From contig JAAYUB010000104.1 in the NCBI GenBank assembly GCA_012517875.1, positions 1 to 64,000 on the forward strand: a stretch of 64,000 nucleotides of DNA, in the 5' to 3' direction. Within the stretch, counting starts at the first letter, position 1. Every line of letters begins with the position of its first letter. Under the pieces are notes generated by a model that worked only from the letters and a program-made list of their open reading frames with translations, was not told the DNA's origin and did not search any database. Of this stretch, positions 46,336-51,672 are shown one piece after another. The DNA comes from Acidobacteriota bacterium. Lineage in GTDB: Bacteria; Acidobacteriota; JAAYUB01. Made by a program: the position numbers and the translations under genes.

Positions 46336-47319
46336 ATGTCCCACGAAACAATCATGTGGCTGGTGTTCGGTGTGGCCGTGAGCGGCATGCTGGTCCTGGA
46401 TCTGGGCGTGTTCCACCGGCGGGCGCACAAGGTGTCCATTCGCGAAGCGCTGGTCTGGAGTGCGGTCTGGATTGCACTGGCCCTGGTGTTCGCGGTCGGG
46501 GTCTGGTTTGAGCTGGGGCGGGAGCGGGCGCTGGAGTTCCTCGCCGGGTATATCATCGAGAAGTCGCTCAGCGTCGATAACCTGTTTGTCTTCCTGGTGA
46601 TCTTCTCCTATTTCGGCGTGGCGCCGCGCTACCAGCACAAGGTGCTGTTCTGGGGCATCCTGTCTGCGCTGGTGTTCCGCGCGGCGTTCATCGCCGCCGG
46701 TGTCACCCTCATCCGCCAGTTCCACTGGGTGATCTATGTGTTCGGCGTGTTCCTCGTCTACAGCGGGGTGAAGCTCTTCTTTCAGAAAGGCCACGAGATT
46801 CACCCGGAACAGAACCCCATCCTCCGGCTGCTGCGCCGCTTCCGCCGACTGTTCCCCATCACCAAGCGCTACCTGGGGGGGCGCTTCCTGTTCCGGCGCC
46901 GCGGCGCCTGGGTGGGGACGCCGCTGCTGGTGGTGCTGATCATGATCGAGACCAGCGACATCGTCTTCGCTGTGGATTCGATCCCCGCCATCCTGGCCAT
47001 CACCACCGACCCGTTCGTGGTGTACACCTCCAACGTGTTCGCCATTCTGGGCTTGCGCGCCCTTTACTTTGCCTTGGCCGGCGTCATGGAGGTCTTCCAC
47101 TATCTGCACTACGGGCTGGCGTTCATCCTGGCGTTCGTCGGGGCGAAGATGCTGTTGGCCGACGTCTACAAGGTCCCGGTTCCCGTCGCCCTCGGCGTGG
47201 TCGCGGTCATCCTGGCGGGCTCCGTGGTCGTTTCCCTTCTCCGGCCTCCCTCCTCCTCCAAAGACCCCGAGCCGCCGGCTGCCCTGACCGGTGATCGGGT
47301 GACCTCCGCGAAGGAGTAG
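46336..47319 (+). CDS. TerC/Alx-family membrane protein (probable metal-ion exporter)
   Basis: The 327-residue protein has about nine membrane segments. It carries the TerC family signatures VLDLGVFHRRAHKVSIREAL at the N-terminus, GYIIEKSLSVDNLFVFLVIF near residue 75 and MIETSDIVFAVDSIPAILAI near 208, whose acidic residues in membrane helices probably bind metal. Members export manganese in several bacteria, or load it onto secreted proteins. The C-terminal 30 residues are a Pro/Ser-rich cytoplasmic tail. The gap from the EF-G gene is too short for a manganese riboswitch of the yybP-ykoY class, so regulation through that route is not seen here. Probably co-transcribed with EF-G. Confidence 0.9.
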   Translation: MSHETIMWLVFGVAVSGMLVLDLGVFHRRAHKVSIREALVWSAVWIALALVFAVGVWFELGRERALEFLAGYIIEKSLSVDNLFVFLVIFSYFGVAPRYQHKVLFWGILSALVFRAAFIAAGVTLIRQFHWVIYVFGVFLVYSGVKLFFQKGHEIHPEQNPILRLLRRFRRLFPITKRYLGGRFLFRRRGAWVGTPLLVVLIMIETSDIVFAVDSIPAILAITTDPFVVYTSNVFAILGLRALYFALAGVMEVFHYLHYGLAFILAFVGAKMLLADVYKVPVPVALGVVAVILAGSVVVSLLRPPSSSKDPEPPAALTGDRVTSAKE

Positions 47320-47416: not shown

Positions 47417-47425
47417 TGTTATAGT
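47417..47425 (+). promoter_or_regulatory. Extended -10 promoter of the osmolyte operon
   Basis: TGTTATAGT at 47417-47425 fits an extended -10 element, about 80 bases before the first glycosyltransferase start. There is no clear -35 box. The 186-base spacer has no other obvious feature. Confidence 0.5.
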
Positions 47426-47505
47426 GTCTTTGTAACCGAAACCGGAACCGCGATCACGCAAGCTATTTCACCGCCGCCTCCAACGACAACGCACAGGATC
47501 AAGCG

Positions 47506-48777
47506 ATGCAACGACTGGCCGCCGTGCTCAGAGAGGATGTCTGTCGCCAGATCGGAGAGATCGGCGAGGCCGATGTCCTGGTGGGCATTCCCAGCTTCAA
47601 CAACGCCCGCACCATCGGTCACGTGGTCCGGGCGGCGCAGGCCGGCCTCGGCAAGTACTTTTCGTCCTGCCGGGCCGTGTTGGTGAACTCGGACGGCGGT
47701 TCCACCGACGAGACCCTGGATGTGGTCCGCCAGGCGTCGGTGGATTTCGGCACGGTGCTCGTCCAGAACCAGGTGCAGCCCCTGCATAAGATCCTGACGC
47801 CGTATGTCGGATTGCCGGGCAAGGGAAGCGCGTTCCGGACCGTTTTCGAGATCGCCCGGGCGCTGAAGGTGAGGGCTTGCGCCGTCGTGGACTCGGACCT
47901 GCGCAGCATCACCCCCGAGTGGTTTGAGCTGCTGCTGCGGCCGGTGCTGGACAGCGGCTTTGATTACGTGGCGCCCTACTATCACCGGCACAAGTTCGAC
48001 GGCACCATCACCAACACCATCGTCTACCCGATGACCCGTGCCCTGTTCGGCAAGCAGATTCGCCAGCCCATCGGGGGCGATTTCGGCTTCTCGGGTCGCC
48101 TGTCCGAATTCTACGCCAACCAGGACGTCTGGGAAAGCGACGTGGCCCGGTACGGGATTGACATCTGGATGACCGGCACGGCCGTGGCCAAAGGGTTCCG
48201 TGTCTGTCAGTCGTTCCTGGGCGCCAAAATCCATGACCCGAAGGACCCGGGCGCGGATCTCAGCGCCATGCTGCACCAAGTGGTGGGGGCGCTCTTCAGC
48301 CTGATGGAAACGTACCGGTTGTCCTGGCAGTCGGTGGTCGGGTCCATGTCGGTGCCCACGTTCGGATTCGTTTATGCGGTGGGACTGGAGCCCGTGTCGG
48401 TCAACCTGGCCGGCATGCTGGACAAAATGCGCATGGGGGTTCGGGAACTCCGGGACGTTTACTGCCAGATCGTCTCGCCGGAAAGCATGGCCGGTCTCGT
48501 CGCGGCCGCCGACCTGAGCGACGAGCGGTTTGTCCTGCCCGACGAGGTCTGGGTGCGGCTCATTTACGATTTCGCCCTGGCCTGTCATCGGCGGACCATG
48601 AACCGGGAACACCTGATCAAATCGCTGACCCCGCTCTATCTGGGCAAAGTGGCCTCGTTCGTGATCGAGTGCCGGGACAGCGACGCCGCCGCGGTCGAGC
48701 AGCGTCTGGAAGCACTGTGCCAGGCGTTCGAGCGGGACAAGCCCTACCTGGTCTCCCGCTGGGAACCGCAGCACTGA
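47506..48777 (+). CDS. GT-A glycosyltransferase, glucosylglycerate/mannosylglucosylglycerate synthase-like
   Basis: The 423-residue soluble enzyme has an inverting/retaining GT-A core. VLVGIPSFNNARTIGHVV is at the start, LVNSDGGSTDET near 60, the conserved loop LPGKGSA at 103-109 and the metal motif DSD at 129-131. PIGGDFGFSG and YGIDIWMTGTAVAKGF follow near 185-225, then a long helical C-terminus. This pattern fits the single-step synthases that join a nucleotide sugar to glycerate or glucosylglycerate. The neighbours (phosphatase and GpgS-type synthase) support a solute pathway. Whether the product is glucosylglycerate or mannosylglucosylglycerate cannot be told from sequence by eye. It heads the operon; AGGA lies before the ATG. 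Confidence 0.75.
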   Translation: MQRLAAVLREDVCRQIGEIGEADVLVGIPSFNNARTIGHVVRAAQAGLGKYFSSCRAVLVNSDGGSTDETLDVVRQASVDFGTVLVQNQVQPLHKILTPYVGLPGKGSAFRTVFEIARALKVRACAVVDSDLRSITPEWFELLLRPVLDSGFDYVAPYYHRHKFDGTITNTIVYPMTRALFGKQIRQPIGGDFGFSGRLSEFYANQDVWESDVARYGIDIWMTGTAVAKGFRVCQSFLGAKIHDPKDPGADLSAMLHQVVGALFSLMETYRLSWQSVVGSMSVPTFGFVYAVGLEPVSVNLAGMLDKMRMGVRELRDVYCQIVSPESMAGLVAAADLSDERFVLPDEVWVRLIYDFALACHRRTMNREHLIKSLTPLYLGKVASFVIECRDSDAAAVEQRLEALCQAFERDKPYLVSRWEPQH

Positions 48778-48799
48778 TTCCACCGAGGAAGGTGCAGCC

Positions 48800-49501
48800 A
48801 TGAAAGAAATCTGGGAACGGATCATTGTGGAGCCGTTTGAGCGCTTCGTGGGCATGATCGCCTCGTTCCTGCCCAACCTTCTGGTGTCGCTGATCCTGAT
48901 CGTTGCGGGCATAATCTGCGGCTGGCTGACCAGGCAGGTGATCACCGGCCTGCTCCGGGTGGTGAAGGCGGACCGCTTTTTCAAGAAATCGGGCATGATG
49001 CAGGCACTGGAGCGGAGCGGGCTCAAGGACAGCCCGTCCCGGCTCATCGGCCAGTTGGCAGGCTGGCTGGTGGTGCTCGTCTTCACCGTGATCGCCCTAA
49101 CCGCCCTGAAGGTACCGGCGGTCGAAAATCTGCTCAGCCAGATGCTGCTGTACCTGCCCAATCTGTTTGTGGCCGTCGTGATCCTGATGATCGGCTTCAT
49201 TCTCGGCAACTTCCTGCAGCGGACCGTGCTGATCGCCGGTGTCAACGCCGGAGTGCGGCTGGCCCGGACGGCCAGCCGGTGCGTCCAATACGGCGTGTAT
49301 TTTTTCGCGACGGCGATGGCGTTGGAACAACTGGGCATCGGACGCGAGACGGTTCTCATCGCGTTTGCAATCGTGTTCGGGGGCGTGGTGCTGGCGCTGG
49401 CGCTGGCCTTCGGCCTGGGTGGGCGGGCCATCGCCCGGGAGTACCTGGAGCGGTTGATCAAAGGCGGAGATGAAGAGCCGGATGATTTCCATCATCTGTA
49501 G
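48800..49501 (+). CDS. MscS-related conserved-TM-helix channel protein (no cytoplasmic vestibule)
   Basis: The 233-residue protein has about five membrane segments: residues 20-45, 83-105, 112-135, 155-170 and 180-203. It has the glycine/alanine-rich helix AFAIVFGGVVLALALAFGLGG that is typical of the pore-lining helix in small mechanosensitive-channel relatives (TM_helix family, CmpX-like). The large beta/alpha cytoplasmic domain of MscS is missing; only a 25-residue acidic tail follows. It lies 22 bases after one osmolyte glycosyltransferase and upstream of the phosphatase gene. It may therefore release or sense the solute during osmotic change. That coupling is inferred from position. AAGGTG precedes the ATG. 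Confidence 0.78.
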   Translation: MKEIWERIIVEPFERFVGMIASFLPNLLVSLILIVAGIICGWLTRQVITGLLRVVKADRFFKKSGMMQALERSGLKDSPSRLIGQLAGWLVVLVFTVIALTALKVPAVENLLSQMLLYLPNLFVAVVILMIGFILGNFLQRTVLIAGVNAGVRLARTASRCVQYGVYFFATAMALEQLGIGRETVLIAFAIVFGGVVLALALAFGLGGRAIAREYLERLIKGGDEEPDDFHHL

Positions 49502-49569
49502 GCACGTCCCGTGCACCGGTTTGCGGTTCGATCGCCGGCGGGCCGAGGCGGGACCGATGAGGTGGGTGC

Positions 49570-50394
49570 ATGCATGATACCGCAACGCAGTGGGTGGTAT
49601 TCACCGATCTGGACGGAACACTGCTGGACAAGCAGACTTACTCCTGGTCCGCCGCGCGGAGCGGGCTCGAACTCCTGGCCGGCCGGAGCATCCCCCTGGT
49701 GTTGGTGACCAGCAAGACCCTGGCCGAGGTGGAACCCCTGCGGCGGGACATGCAGTTGAACGACCCGTTCATTGTGGAAAACGGGGCCGCCGTGTTCCTG
49801 CCGCCGGACGGCGGAGGGCCCGAAATGGCTGATCTGTCGGAGGTGGCCGGGTACCGCTGTCGGCTGTTCGGCCGGACGTACGCGGAAGCACGCCGATTTC
49901 TGGTCAGCCAGGCGGCGCGGCTGGGTGCGCGCGGATTCGGCGATATGACCATCGACGAGATCTCGGCCCGAACGGCGCTGCCGCCCGACGCGGCGGGCCG
50001 GGCGGCGGCACGGCTCTTCACCGAGCCGTGCGCGGTGGAACCGGGCCGGCTCGCCGAACTCGACGCAATCGCCCGCCGGGCCGGCTTCAGGATTCTGGAA
50101 GGCGGACGGTTTTGTCACGTCGTGGCTGCGGGGCAGGACAAGGGGACGGCCGTGCGGTGGCTGATCGCAGCTTACCAGCGGCGATGGCCCGGCCGGAAAA
50201 TCGGGACGGTGGGCATCGGAGACAGCCCCAACGACTTGGATTTTCTGTCAGTCGTGGATGTGCCGGTGCTCGTCCGGCGCCCTGACGGCACGCACCTCAG
50301 GGCTGACGGTCTGCCCCGGGCTCTGCTGGCGGCCGCGATCGGACCGGCGGGTTGGAACCTGGCGATCCACCAATTGCTCGGCGACCGCCGCTGA
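49570..50394 (+). CDS. Mannosyl-/glucosyl-3-phosphoglycerate phosphatase (HAD family)
   Basis: The 274-residue protein is a HAD-IIB phosphatase. FTDLDGTLLD (nucleophile Asp13, acid Asp15) is followed by VLVTSKTLAEVEPL (motif II), an inserted cap domain (about 85-195), and GIGDSPNDLDFL (motif IV) near 217. VENGAAVFLPPDGG and RFCHVVAAGQDKGTAV are characteristic of the mannosyl-3-phosphoglycerate phosphatase branch. It should remove phosphate from the glycosyl-3-phosphoglycerate made by the next gene's product, giving the free glycosylglycerate osmolyte. It lies between the channel gene and the synthase gene. Sugar identity (glucose or mannose) is uncertain; the adjacent GpgS-like synthase favours glucose. 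Confidence 0.85.
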   Translation: MHDTATQWVVFTDLDGTLLDKQTYSWSAARSGLELLAGRSIPLVLVTSKTLAEVEPLRRDMQLNDPFIVENGAAVFLPPDGGGPEMADLSEVAGYRCRLFGRTYAEARRFLVSQAARLGARGFGDMTIDEISARTALPPDAAGRAAARLFTEPCAVEPGRLAELDAIARRAGFRILEGGRFCHVVAAGQDKGTAVRWLIAAYQRRWPGRKIGTVGIGDSPNDLDFLSVVDVPVLVRRPDGTHLRADGLPRALLAAAIGPAGWNLAIHQLLGDRR

Positions 50395-50463
50395 GGCTGC
50401 GGAAATGCCGTCGTTCCGGCACGGCGTCGCAGCCGGGCGAAAAGCGACAAACGGGAGTATGCC

Positions 50464-51672
50464 ATGAGTGATTTCTTTCAGAACGGAGTCATCACTACCC
50501 TGCCCATCCTGGGAGACCATCCGGTCGAGGAAATGGAAGCGGAGCTCCGGAGCCATGCCGTGACCAGCAAGATCGCACTCCTGCTGCCTGCACTGGTCAC
50601 CGAGTTCGAAGGGCCGGCGATGAAAAAGATCCTAAAACAGCTGCAGGGCGTCGACTATCTGCACCAGGTCGTCGTGTCGCTGGACCGAGCTGAACGGGCG
50701 CAGTTCGTTGACATTCGGGACTACCTGCGACGGCGACTGCCGACGGTGCAGGTGGTTTGGCACGACGGCCCCCGGATGCAGGCGATCTATCAGCGGTTGC
50801 GACGCGAGGATTTTCCGGTGGACATGCCCGGCAAGGGGCTGTCCGTGTGGATGACCTTGGGATATATTCTGGCGCAAGGAGATGTGGACGGGATCGCGCT
50901 GCACGACTGTGACATCACCAACTACGACCGGAACCTGCTCGCGCGCCTTGTCTATCCGCTGATGAGCCGCCGCGCGGATTTCGAATTCTGCAAGGGCTAT
51001 TATGCCCGGGTGAACGGGCGTCTCTACGGCCGCGCCACCCGCTTGTTTTTCACGCCGATCATCCGGTCGCTGAAGCGCACGGTGGGCCGCCTGCTCTATC
51101 TGGAATATCTCGACAGCTTTCGTTATCCCCTGGCGGGTGAGTTCGCGATCCACTCCCATCTGGCCGAATCCATCCGGATCGCCCCGGACTGGGGCTTGGA
51201 GATCTCCACCCTCGGGGAGGTCTACCACAACACCTCGCTCAAGCGCATCTGCCAGGTGGAGCTGATGGACAGCTACTGCCATAAACACCAGGCCATCGAC
51301 ATCCGCAAACCCGGCACGGGCCTGGTCCGGATGGTCATGGACATCTCCCTGTCCCTGTTCCGGATCCTGACTCAGGACGGGGTTGTCTTGTCGGATGCCC
51401 ACTTTCGTTCCCTCCAGACCAGTTACCTGCGCGAAGCCCGCGAGGCGGTGGACAAGTACAGCGCCCTGGCCGCCATCAACCGACTGGAGTATGACCGGCA
51501 CGCCGAGATCTCGGCGGTGGAGGCCTTCCAGAAGGGTTTCCGGCTGGCCGTCGAGCGATTCCGGGAGGACCCGGTGGGCACGCCCATGATTCCGGCGTGG
51601 ACCCGCATCCGCTCGGCGATTCCGGATCTGTCGGCCGAGCTGCTGGACGCGGTATGGGCCGACAACGCCTGA
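50464..51672 (+). CDS. gpgS: Glucosyl-3-phosphoglycerate synthase (GpgS-type, GT81-like)
   Basis: The 402-residue soluble GT-A enzyme has a sugar-nucleotide motif LPALVTEFEGPAM near 41, VVVSLDRA near 69, the loop MPGKGLSVWM at 121-130 and the metal motif HDCDITNYDR (Asp148, Asp150). The acceptor region PLAGEFAIHSHLA and WGLEISTLGEVY follow. This fits GpgS, which joins glucose from a nucleotide sugar to 3-phosphoglycerate. Together with the phosphatase encoded 69 bases upstream it forms the two-step route to glucosylglycerate, a compatible solute. GGGAG lies just before the ATG. It is the last gene of the operon; the rpmE promoter begins 20 bases later. Confidence 0.85.
   Translation: MSDFFQNGVITTLPILGDHPVEEMEAELRSHAVTSKIALLLPALVTEFEGPAMKKILKQLQGVDYLHQVVVSLDRAERAQFVDIRDYLRRRLPTVQVVWHDGPRMQAIYQRLRREDFPVDMPGKGLSVWMTLGYILAQGDVDGIALHDCDITNYDRNLLARLVYPLMSRRADFEFCKGYYARVNGRLYGRATRLFFTPIIRSLKRTVGRLLYLEYLDSFRYPLAGEFAIHSHLAESIRIAPDWGLEISTLGEVYHNTSLKRICQVELMDSYCHKHQAIDIRKPGTGLVRMVMDISLSLFRILTQDGVVLSDAHFRSLQTSYLREAREAVDKYSALAAINRLEYDRHAEISAVEAFQKGFRLAVERFREDPVGTPMIPAWTRIRSAIPDLSAELLDAVWADNA

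Follow-up and report, generated by a model that had tools for sequence, protein, structure and literature searches.

It has long been asked how synthesis and release of solutes are kept in step in bacteria. In Petrotoga, Rhodopirellula and Persephonella, the pathways to mannosylglucosylglycerate and glucosylglucosylglycerate use GpgS, GpgP and a further glycosyltransferase (GT), and we know of no channel partner or pseudoenzyme form for the GTs of these pathways. Enzyme-fold regulatory subunits of channels are represented by the Kv beta subunits, and CmpX is presumably a relative of the small channel described below. A pathway of the diglycosylglycerate type is reported for R. baltica (PMC3694870), and PMC2581804 gives the roles of the catalytic and acceptor residues of MgS (K76, D100, D102, T139, I138, D192 and H217). 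No GT-channel pairing was found in the literature searched, which included PMC11009771, PMC7641640 and PMC2581804 but not most subscription papers, among them the original Ggs and MGG enzyme papers.

The four-gene cluster and its enzymes

The window (the whole stretch of 64,000 nucleotides analysed, from contig JAAYUB010000104.1 of an Acidobacteriota bacterium) contains four closely spaced ORFs, all on the + strand. The ORF check hence agrees with the initial annotation, which had described four genes in close order:

47506..48777, + strand: GT1, 423 aa; GT-A glycosyltransferase of MgS fold (GT78-like) with a C-terminal helical domain
48800..49501, + strand: channel, 233 aa; small MscS-like protein with five predicted TM helices, without beta/vestibule domain
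49469..49498, + strand: channel tail, codons of residues 224-233 (the last ten); low-confidence in the model; terminus F-H-H-L; proposed docking tail
49570..50394, + strand: phosphatase, 274 aa; HAD, mannosyl/glucosyl-3-phosphoglycerate phosphatase family (MpgP/GpgP-like)
50464..51672, + strand: GpgS-like GT, 402 aa; glucosyl-3-phosphoglycerate synthase-like, GpgS_Meth type

The intergenic gaps are, from 5' to 3', 22, 68 and 69 bp. An earlier start at 47417 had to be discarded, as it is out of frame with many stops; the first start codon in the GT1 frame is the ATG at 47506. GT1 and the GpgS-like GT each occur in one copy in this genome. The Rfam scan gave no match, and the promoter/terminator scan was unremarkable, with no promoter-like site on the + strand.

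The phosphatase belongs to the MPGP family (TIGR01486, 213.7 bits against a cut-off of 164.75). The last gene matched NF040724 (GpgS_Meth) over its full length with 305 bits against a cut-off of 700, and by this cut-off rule it counts as a relative and not as an equivalog. The view that the locus is an osmolyte cluster was supported. Judging from their families, GpgS and the phosphatase would make glucosylglycerate, and the cluster would combine synthesis of a glucosylglycerate-type compatible solute with a two-protein module of GT1 and channel.

GT1 had been described as resembling a single-step synthase, and both profile and fold comparison point the same way. The window protein scored 28.7 bits with PF21969 (MGS_GT; cut-off 27) and 49 bits with NF010496 (GpgS), far below its cut-off of 262, and its best solved relative by profile was MgS of Rhodothermus marinus (1.3e-6). 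Structure models were built for GT1 and the channel, each as a single protein; that of GT1 (pLDDT 90) agreed with MgS in fold, including the C-terminal helical domain, and matched it over the full length (TM 0.68/0.75; with 2y4k_A, 0.69/0.76 over 408 columns). Residues K106, D129, D131, T169, D219 and H243 of GT1 correspond to K76, D100, D102, T139, D192 and H217 of MgS, and these six catalytic and acceptor positions were invariant or at least 90% conserved in 47 sequences; T169 and I168 are invariant equivalents of T139 and I138. MgS was nearest in profile and fold, with no clustering with cell-wall or lipid enzymes, and a GT of the latter kind was ruled out because, among solved structures, GT1 is closest to MgS and GpgS. 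The plasmid collection gave a single distant match, and the control genomes with matches included no Aquificota.

The channel and its linkage to GT1

PF05552, the conserved TM helix family, matched the channel twice (57.1 bits, cut-off 22). The MscS beta domain and vestibule were sought with PF00924 and PF21082, neither of which matched; the model is all-helical, and comparisons with MscS gave weak matches (best E 0.23 and best E 0.005). This fits the initial description of an MscS-type channel lacking the vestibule.

Of 80 named loci, drawn from several phyla, 74 have the channel as the next gene downstream of GT1; phyla beyond Acidobacteriota and Nitrospirota were sampled through the best 80 loci only. 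In Acidobacteriota this was the case for 58 of 119 GT1 places (58 of 106 GT1-bearing genomes), and in Nitrospirota for 106 of 109 near-full GT1 places. The counts in these two phyla exclude adjacency by chance, and the channel proved to be linked to solute genes elsewhere too, the opposite of what would have spoken against the initial proposal. In Acidobacteriota, Nitrospirota and other bacteria, GT and channel are passed on as a pair. The wider islands are rich in osmolyte and ion-flux genes (TreT/TreZ, TreY, OtsAB, GlgC, MscS, KefC and a Na/Ca exchanger).

Channels of the GT1-linked set end in a short motif, hydrophobic-x-His-hydrophobic. Of the 124 channels in the set, 116 have the His-hydrophobic terminus and 8 lack it; it was also found in 45 of 48 Nitrospirota channels, as compared with 0 of 35 unlinked channel homologues and 3 of 358 other neighbours. 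Two tail-bearing channels (at L282 and L283) have no adjacent GT1. Alternatively, the tail may characterise a subfamily of channels for reasons unrelated to docking.

GT1 copies that have lost catalytic residues

Among 110 Acidobacteriota GT1 ORFs, 37 are catalytically dead, with 1-6 of 10 catalytic positions left. All 37 adjoin a channel, and none of the 53 ORFs without an adjacent channel is dead (Fisher 5e-15, with kinship ignored). The neighbouring channels keep their tail, as seen in the 36 that were read. Of the 20 divergent Nitrospirota copies retrieved, 18 are dead, all with a channel, and the two active ones both lack it; taken alone these copies give no significant association (Fisher p 0.53), because nearly all copies in this phylum have a channel. 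Dead copies are confined to few clades, indicating 2-3 independent events and at least two losses of catalysis. GpgS is still present in two Nitrospirota genomes whose only GT1 copy is dead, and likewise in one Acidobacteriota genome (G348).

Assembly errors or decaying pseudogenes could be dismissed, since no stop interrupts the reading frames of one dead group (f9), several copies come from genomes assembled in one or a few contigs, and pairwise dN/dS stays low (mostly 0.1-0.2 for close pairs, dS being saturated between most species). It was also considered whether, in genomes lacking GpgS, the f9 GT1 is a further synthase of the one-step type; its lost catalytic residues ruled this out. The intact ORFs and purifying selection would also be expected if these copies were GTs of changed mechanism instead of pseudoenzymes; we regard this as very improbable, given that most Acidobacteriota cases combine changes in the DxD motif, in the metal-binding His and in the PGKG lysine, and that no sugar-transferase family was recognised in the four dead proteins scanned.

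Between active and inactive channel-linked relatives, conservation lies in the C-terminal helical domain of GT1 (about 297-420). In 99% of 659 dead pairs, as against 0-1% of active pairs, this domain was more conserved than the N-domain; in dead GT1, as far as sequences tell, constraint has shifted away from the catalytic domain and towards the C-terminal one. In the mirror-tree comparison, the channel co-diverged only slightly more closely with the C-domain (partial r 0.56) than it did with the N-domain (0.46).

These observations bear on the joint regulation of synthesis and release put forward by the initial annotation. The pairing itself stood, but not joint regulation as its sole meaning, since the GT partner of the channel is often dead but under selection in two phyla; dead partners, tail motif and GpgS fusion (see below) lie outside that idea. 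Co-regulation of synthesis and release genes in one operon, with no physical contact, would suit islands holding many osmolyte and ion-flux genes, but it does not account for the tail motif, for dead partners being kept or for the shift of constraint, and we consider it unlikely. We are equally sceptical of the reverse direction, in which the channel would act as an osmosensor, recruit the GT to the membrane as its anchor and control osmolyte synthesis. It fits linkage and tail equally well, and active GT1 does occur with GpgS; however, 37 Acidobacteriota and 18 Nitrospirota partners that have lost catalytic residues keep channel and tail, and these should have no activity left for the channel to control. 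Lineages with a dead enzyme but a kept pair thus provide a natural control separating catalysis from partnership.

Proposed role of GT1 and comparison with known systems

With regard to the enzyme step, three Nitrospirota genomes encode GpgS::GT1 fusions, each with the channel directly downstream, in which the GpgS part scored 412-417 bits (NF010496, cut-off 262). Since GT1 is here fused to a bona fide GpgS, active GT1 probably belongs to the glucosylglycerate pathway, as a GT-A enzyme of MgS fold working alongside GpgS. Active GT1 occurs in genomes that have GpgS in 64 of 73 cases, and co-occurrence and fusion fit consecutive steps better than the alternative routes to one solute previously suggested. 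We infer from this that active GT1 most likely adds a second sugar to (phospho)glucosylglycerate, which makes it a candidate second GT of diglycosylglycerate osmolytes; transfer to free glycerate appears less likely. The latter would apply if active GT1 were a one-step, Ggs-like glucosylglycerate synthase using ADP-glucose and glycerate. The full-length match to MgS, itself a one-step enzyme, and the invariant equivalents of its catalytic and acceptor residues are in keeping with this, as is GlgC (ADP-glucose pyrophosphorylase) one gene upstream in 14 loci; Persephonella marina reportedly has one-step and two-step routes side by side. Such an enzyme would, however, be redundant with GpgS/GpgP, at odds with the tight co-occurrence and the fusion, and we find it rather doubtful.

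Pairing, tail and inactive but selected partners suggest that GT1 also serves as a functional component of the channel. The reading we prefer, at a probability of roughly 0.55, is that GT1 docks on the channel tail as a regulatory subunit and that active forms also act in the osmolyte pathway. The C-terminal helical domain would probably bind the tail (hydrophobic-x-His-hydrophobic-COOH) independently of catalysis, and GT1 would gate, as a cytoplasmic regulatory subunit, a channel with no cytoplasmic vestibule of its own. In several lineages catalysis would have been lost and the role of channel partner alone would remain; the dead descendant may still sense solute. We see an even chance that this amounts to a widespread complex, in which an osmolyte GT or its dead descendant, docked on a four-residue tail, controls a vestibule-less MscS-like channel. 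One peptide and two proteins would suffice to put the hypothesis to the test.

Compared with known systems, GT1 resembles MgS (Rhodothermus marinus, GT78; PDB 2BO4, 2Y4J-M) in profile, full-length fold and catalytic residues, but shares 17-18% identity with it and is tied to GpgS and a channel. With mycobacterial GpgS (GT81) it has the GT-A core in common, the match covering this core only (about 274 alignment columns); the second GT of the window matches GpgS_Meth over its full length. The mannosylglucosylglycerate/glucosylglucosylglycerate pathways likewise combine GpgS, GpgP and a further GT. The channel resembles MscS/CmpX-type channels in its MscS-like pore-helix region and in the helix repeat of PF05552, but has neither the beta domain nor the vestibule of MscS, and its terminal h-x-H-h tail is absent from unlinked homologues. 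The Kv beta subunits, in which an enzyme fold is co-opted to regulate a channel, would work alike without being homologous; the GT1-channel pair differs in being bacterial, in its glycosyltransferase fold and in its osmolyte context.

The window cluster and its conservation

All four genes that the initial annotation had placed in close order are present as ORFs on the + strand of the window, which is contig C104 of a 4.0 Mb genome assembled in 182 contigs. The cluster start it gave (47417) is out of frame, and the ORF of the first glycosyltransferase (GT1) begins at 47506.

Genes of the window cluster and the gene directly upstream
46336-47319, same strand as GT1: TerC-family membrane protein gene, about 190 bp before GT1
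47506-48777, +: GT1
48800-49501, +: channel, five predicted TM helices
49570-50394, +: phosphatase, passing TIGR01486
50464-51672, +: GpgS-like synthase, a full-length relative of GpgS_Meth

Downstream lie a DUF1385 gene (PF07136) and what we take to be rpmE, prfA and prmC. The channel matches PF05552 twice and its structural matches to MscS are weak; family scan and structure model revealed neither a beta nor a vestibule domain in it, in agreement with its earlier description as vestibule-less.

The expectation that the channel would be linked elsewhere also held. Named genomes were scanned and the best 80 of 224 relatives compared: in 74 the gene immediately after GT1 encodes the channel. 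The 80 loci belong to records of Acidobacteriota, Nitrospirota, Desulfobacterota-type, Zixibacteria, Eisenbacteria and Aminicenantes; the nearest named relatives among them are Acidobacteriota MAGs (GT1 95-96% identical). L098 and L109 carry the channel at another place in the cluster, the sequence after GT1 stops at just 2 bp in L080 and 207 bp in L110, and no channel was found at the last two of the 80 loci (L084, L099). In two genome sets whose phylum labels were inferred from how the centre-locus records are titled, GT1 occurs in 106 of 396 Acidobacteriota genomes, with the channel at most 500 bp after it in 58 of the 106, and in 92 of 198 Nitrospirota genomes, where 106 of 109 near-full copies have the channel after them.

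Loss of catalysis and the channel tail

Ten catalytic positions were scored in 110 aligned Acidobacteriota GT1 ORFs (119 places minus 9 fragments). All ten are kept in 73 ("active"), and only one to six in 37 ("dead"). The channel adjoins every one of the 37 dead ORFs, and none of the 53 ORFs lacking an adjacent channel is dead. The genome has no GpgS match for 36 of the 37 dead ORFs and does have GpgS for 64 of the 73 active ones. One family, f9, holds 31 of the 37, several of its genomes being in one or few contigs. As a test in a second phylum, the 20 most divergent Nitrospirota copies were fetched: 18 are dead (4-6 of 10 positions), each with a channel downstream, and the channel is missing beside the two that are intact. 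Thirty further Nitrospirota copies have 10/10 positions and the channel.

Close dead pairs mostly give dN/dS values of 0.1-0.2, indicating that the dead proteins are under selection. The constraint is inverted between the two forms: the N-domain is more conserved in 99-100% of active pairs, whereas the C-domain is more conserved in 99% of 659 dead pairs. Channel-linked forms group together on strongly supported branches, apart from unlinked active forms. Judged from these quick trees with long branches, catalysis was lost at least twice within the channel-linked group; a branch at 84% unites the majority of dead forms from the two phyla, suggesting two to three loss events. Together, L130 (genome G348) and L023 (G175) capture a recent loss of GT1 catalysis beside an active sister of the same family, with GpgS still there, which makes the two well suited to side-by-side experiments.

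Although the channel model has low confidence over its last ten residues, D228 and H232 are almost invariant. A His-hydrophobic end is found in 116 of 124 channels overall, 113 with the fuller h-x-H-h form (hydrophobic-x-His-hydrophobic): 61/68 named linked channels, 14/15 and 2/2 active-linked Acidobacteriota channels, 36/36 dead-linked channels, and 3/3 lying apart from GT1 within the locus or outside the adjacency rule. The Nitrospirota figure is 45/48 (one place counted twice). This end is absent from all the unlinked homologues compared (20 Acidobacteriota, 15 Nitrospirota) and from 355 of 358 other conserved neighbour proteins. Linkers ahead of the motif vary in length and sequence, as a short docking motif would predict. 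The L282 and L283 channels keep the tail with no adjacent GT1, GT1 being elsewhere in both genomes. A possible variant, N/D-P-L replacing x-H-L, ends the channels of L043, L052, L057, L063 and L064, five loci whose records are Deltaproteobacteria-type or proteobacterial.

We have high confidence in anatomy, linkage, dead partners and tail. That the pair, the tail and the C-domain outlast catalysis is best explained by a GT protein that would act on the channel independently of catalysis. Since the channel lacks the vestibule carried by other MscS channels, a docked cytoplasmic GT protein might plausibly substitute for it. The reverse direction, in which the channel exists to control the enzyme, is less favoured: a dead enzyme would leave it nothing to control, yet pair, tail and C-domain persist. 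From the sequence patterns, we put the probability of a physical complex with regulation running from GT to channel at about 0.55.

Osmolyte genes and the pathway of GT1

Trehalose, ADP-glucose or GpgS/phosphatase genes, one or more per locus, occur in the flanks of 69 of the 80 loci from named genomes, and in 14 of the 80 the gene directly upstream of GT1 encodes ADP-glucose pyrophosphorylase. Among L039-L111 an osmoadaptation island recurs around the pair (e.g. L044, L047, L051, L055, L089), containing M23 peptidase, MscS, DUF5752, TreT-like GT, OtsAB or TreY/TreZ, a KefC-type antiporter and a Na/Ca exchanger. DUF5752 (PF19027), for which we know of no role, frequently adjoins the TreT-like gene. 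In the f9 loci examined, a TreS gene precedes dead GT1 and channel, and most of these loci also have maltokinase. A second GH13-like gene there looks like GlgE, an identity for which NCBIfam gave no confirmation.

Pseudo-GT locus and GpgS::GT1 fusions
L112, 16542-11099, - strand: f9 pseudo-GT and channel, preceded by TreS/maltokinase and another GH13-like gene (similar: L114, L116, L117)
L263, 1828-4272: GpgS::GT1 fusion ORF, Nitrospirota
L264, 1831-4266: GpgS::GT1 fusion ORF, Nitrospirota
L265, 2959-5397, - strand: GpgS::GT1 fusion ORF, Nitrospirota

The fusion ORFs (812-815 aa) join an N-terminal mycobacterial-type GpgS (412-417 bits against a cut-off of 262) to a C-terminal GT1, with the channel directly downstream; the other GpgS type was not found in these three genomes. 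Each fusion is a ready enzyme for assay by itself. Window-type GpgS occurs in 68 of 76 Nitrospirota GT1 genomes compared, and a separate search adds two (G407, G408); the remaining six are the three with a fusion and three with dead GT1 only (G523, G555, G591). In a search of 45 named genomes, chosen mainly where no full GpgS gene lies close to GT1, 38 proved to have GpgS somewhere.

The fusions and this co-occurrence provide good evidence that active GT1 works in the same pathway as GpgS. A one-step route redundant with GpgS would suit the acceptor residues of GT1, which resemble those for free glycerate, but is less favoured given the co-occurrence and the three fusions. Consecutive action, with GT1 probably adding a second sugar, is thus the favoured reading of these gene patterns over redundancy and a one-step product. 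Counting against it, two Nitrospirota genomes with dead GT1 only (G549, G554) keep GpgS, as does G348.

GT1 compared with MgS and GpgS

The annotation of GT1 as single-step-synthase-like is supported by comparison with characterised enzymes. Window GT1 narrowly passes the PF21969 cut-off, and a profile of 47 relatives matches Rhodothermus marinus mannosylglycerate synthase (MgS) first (1.3e-6) and GpgS second (1e-3). Residues described for MgS include K76, D100, D102, D192, H217 and M229, with acceptor contacts T139/I138 (PMC2581804). Profile alignment places these at K106, D129, D131, D219, H243 and M255 and at T169/I168 of GT1, all invariant or at least 90% conserved. At the position of a GpgS serine that is proposed to keep mannose out, GT1 has glycine, as does MgS. 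The AlphaFold model of GT1 (pLDDT 90) aligns with MgS along its full length (TM 0.68/0.75), whereas only the core aligns with GpgS.
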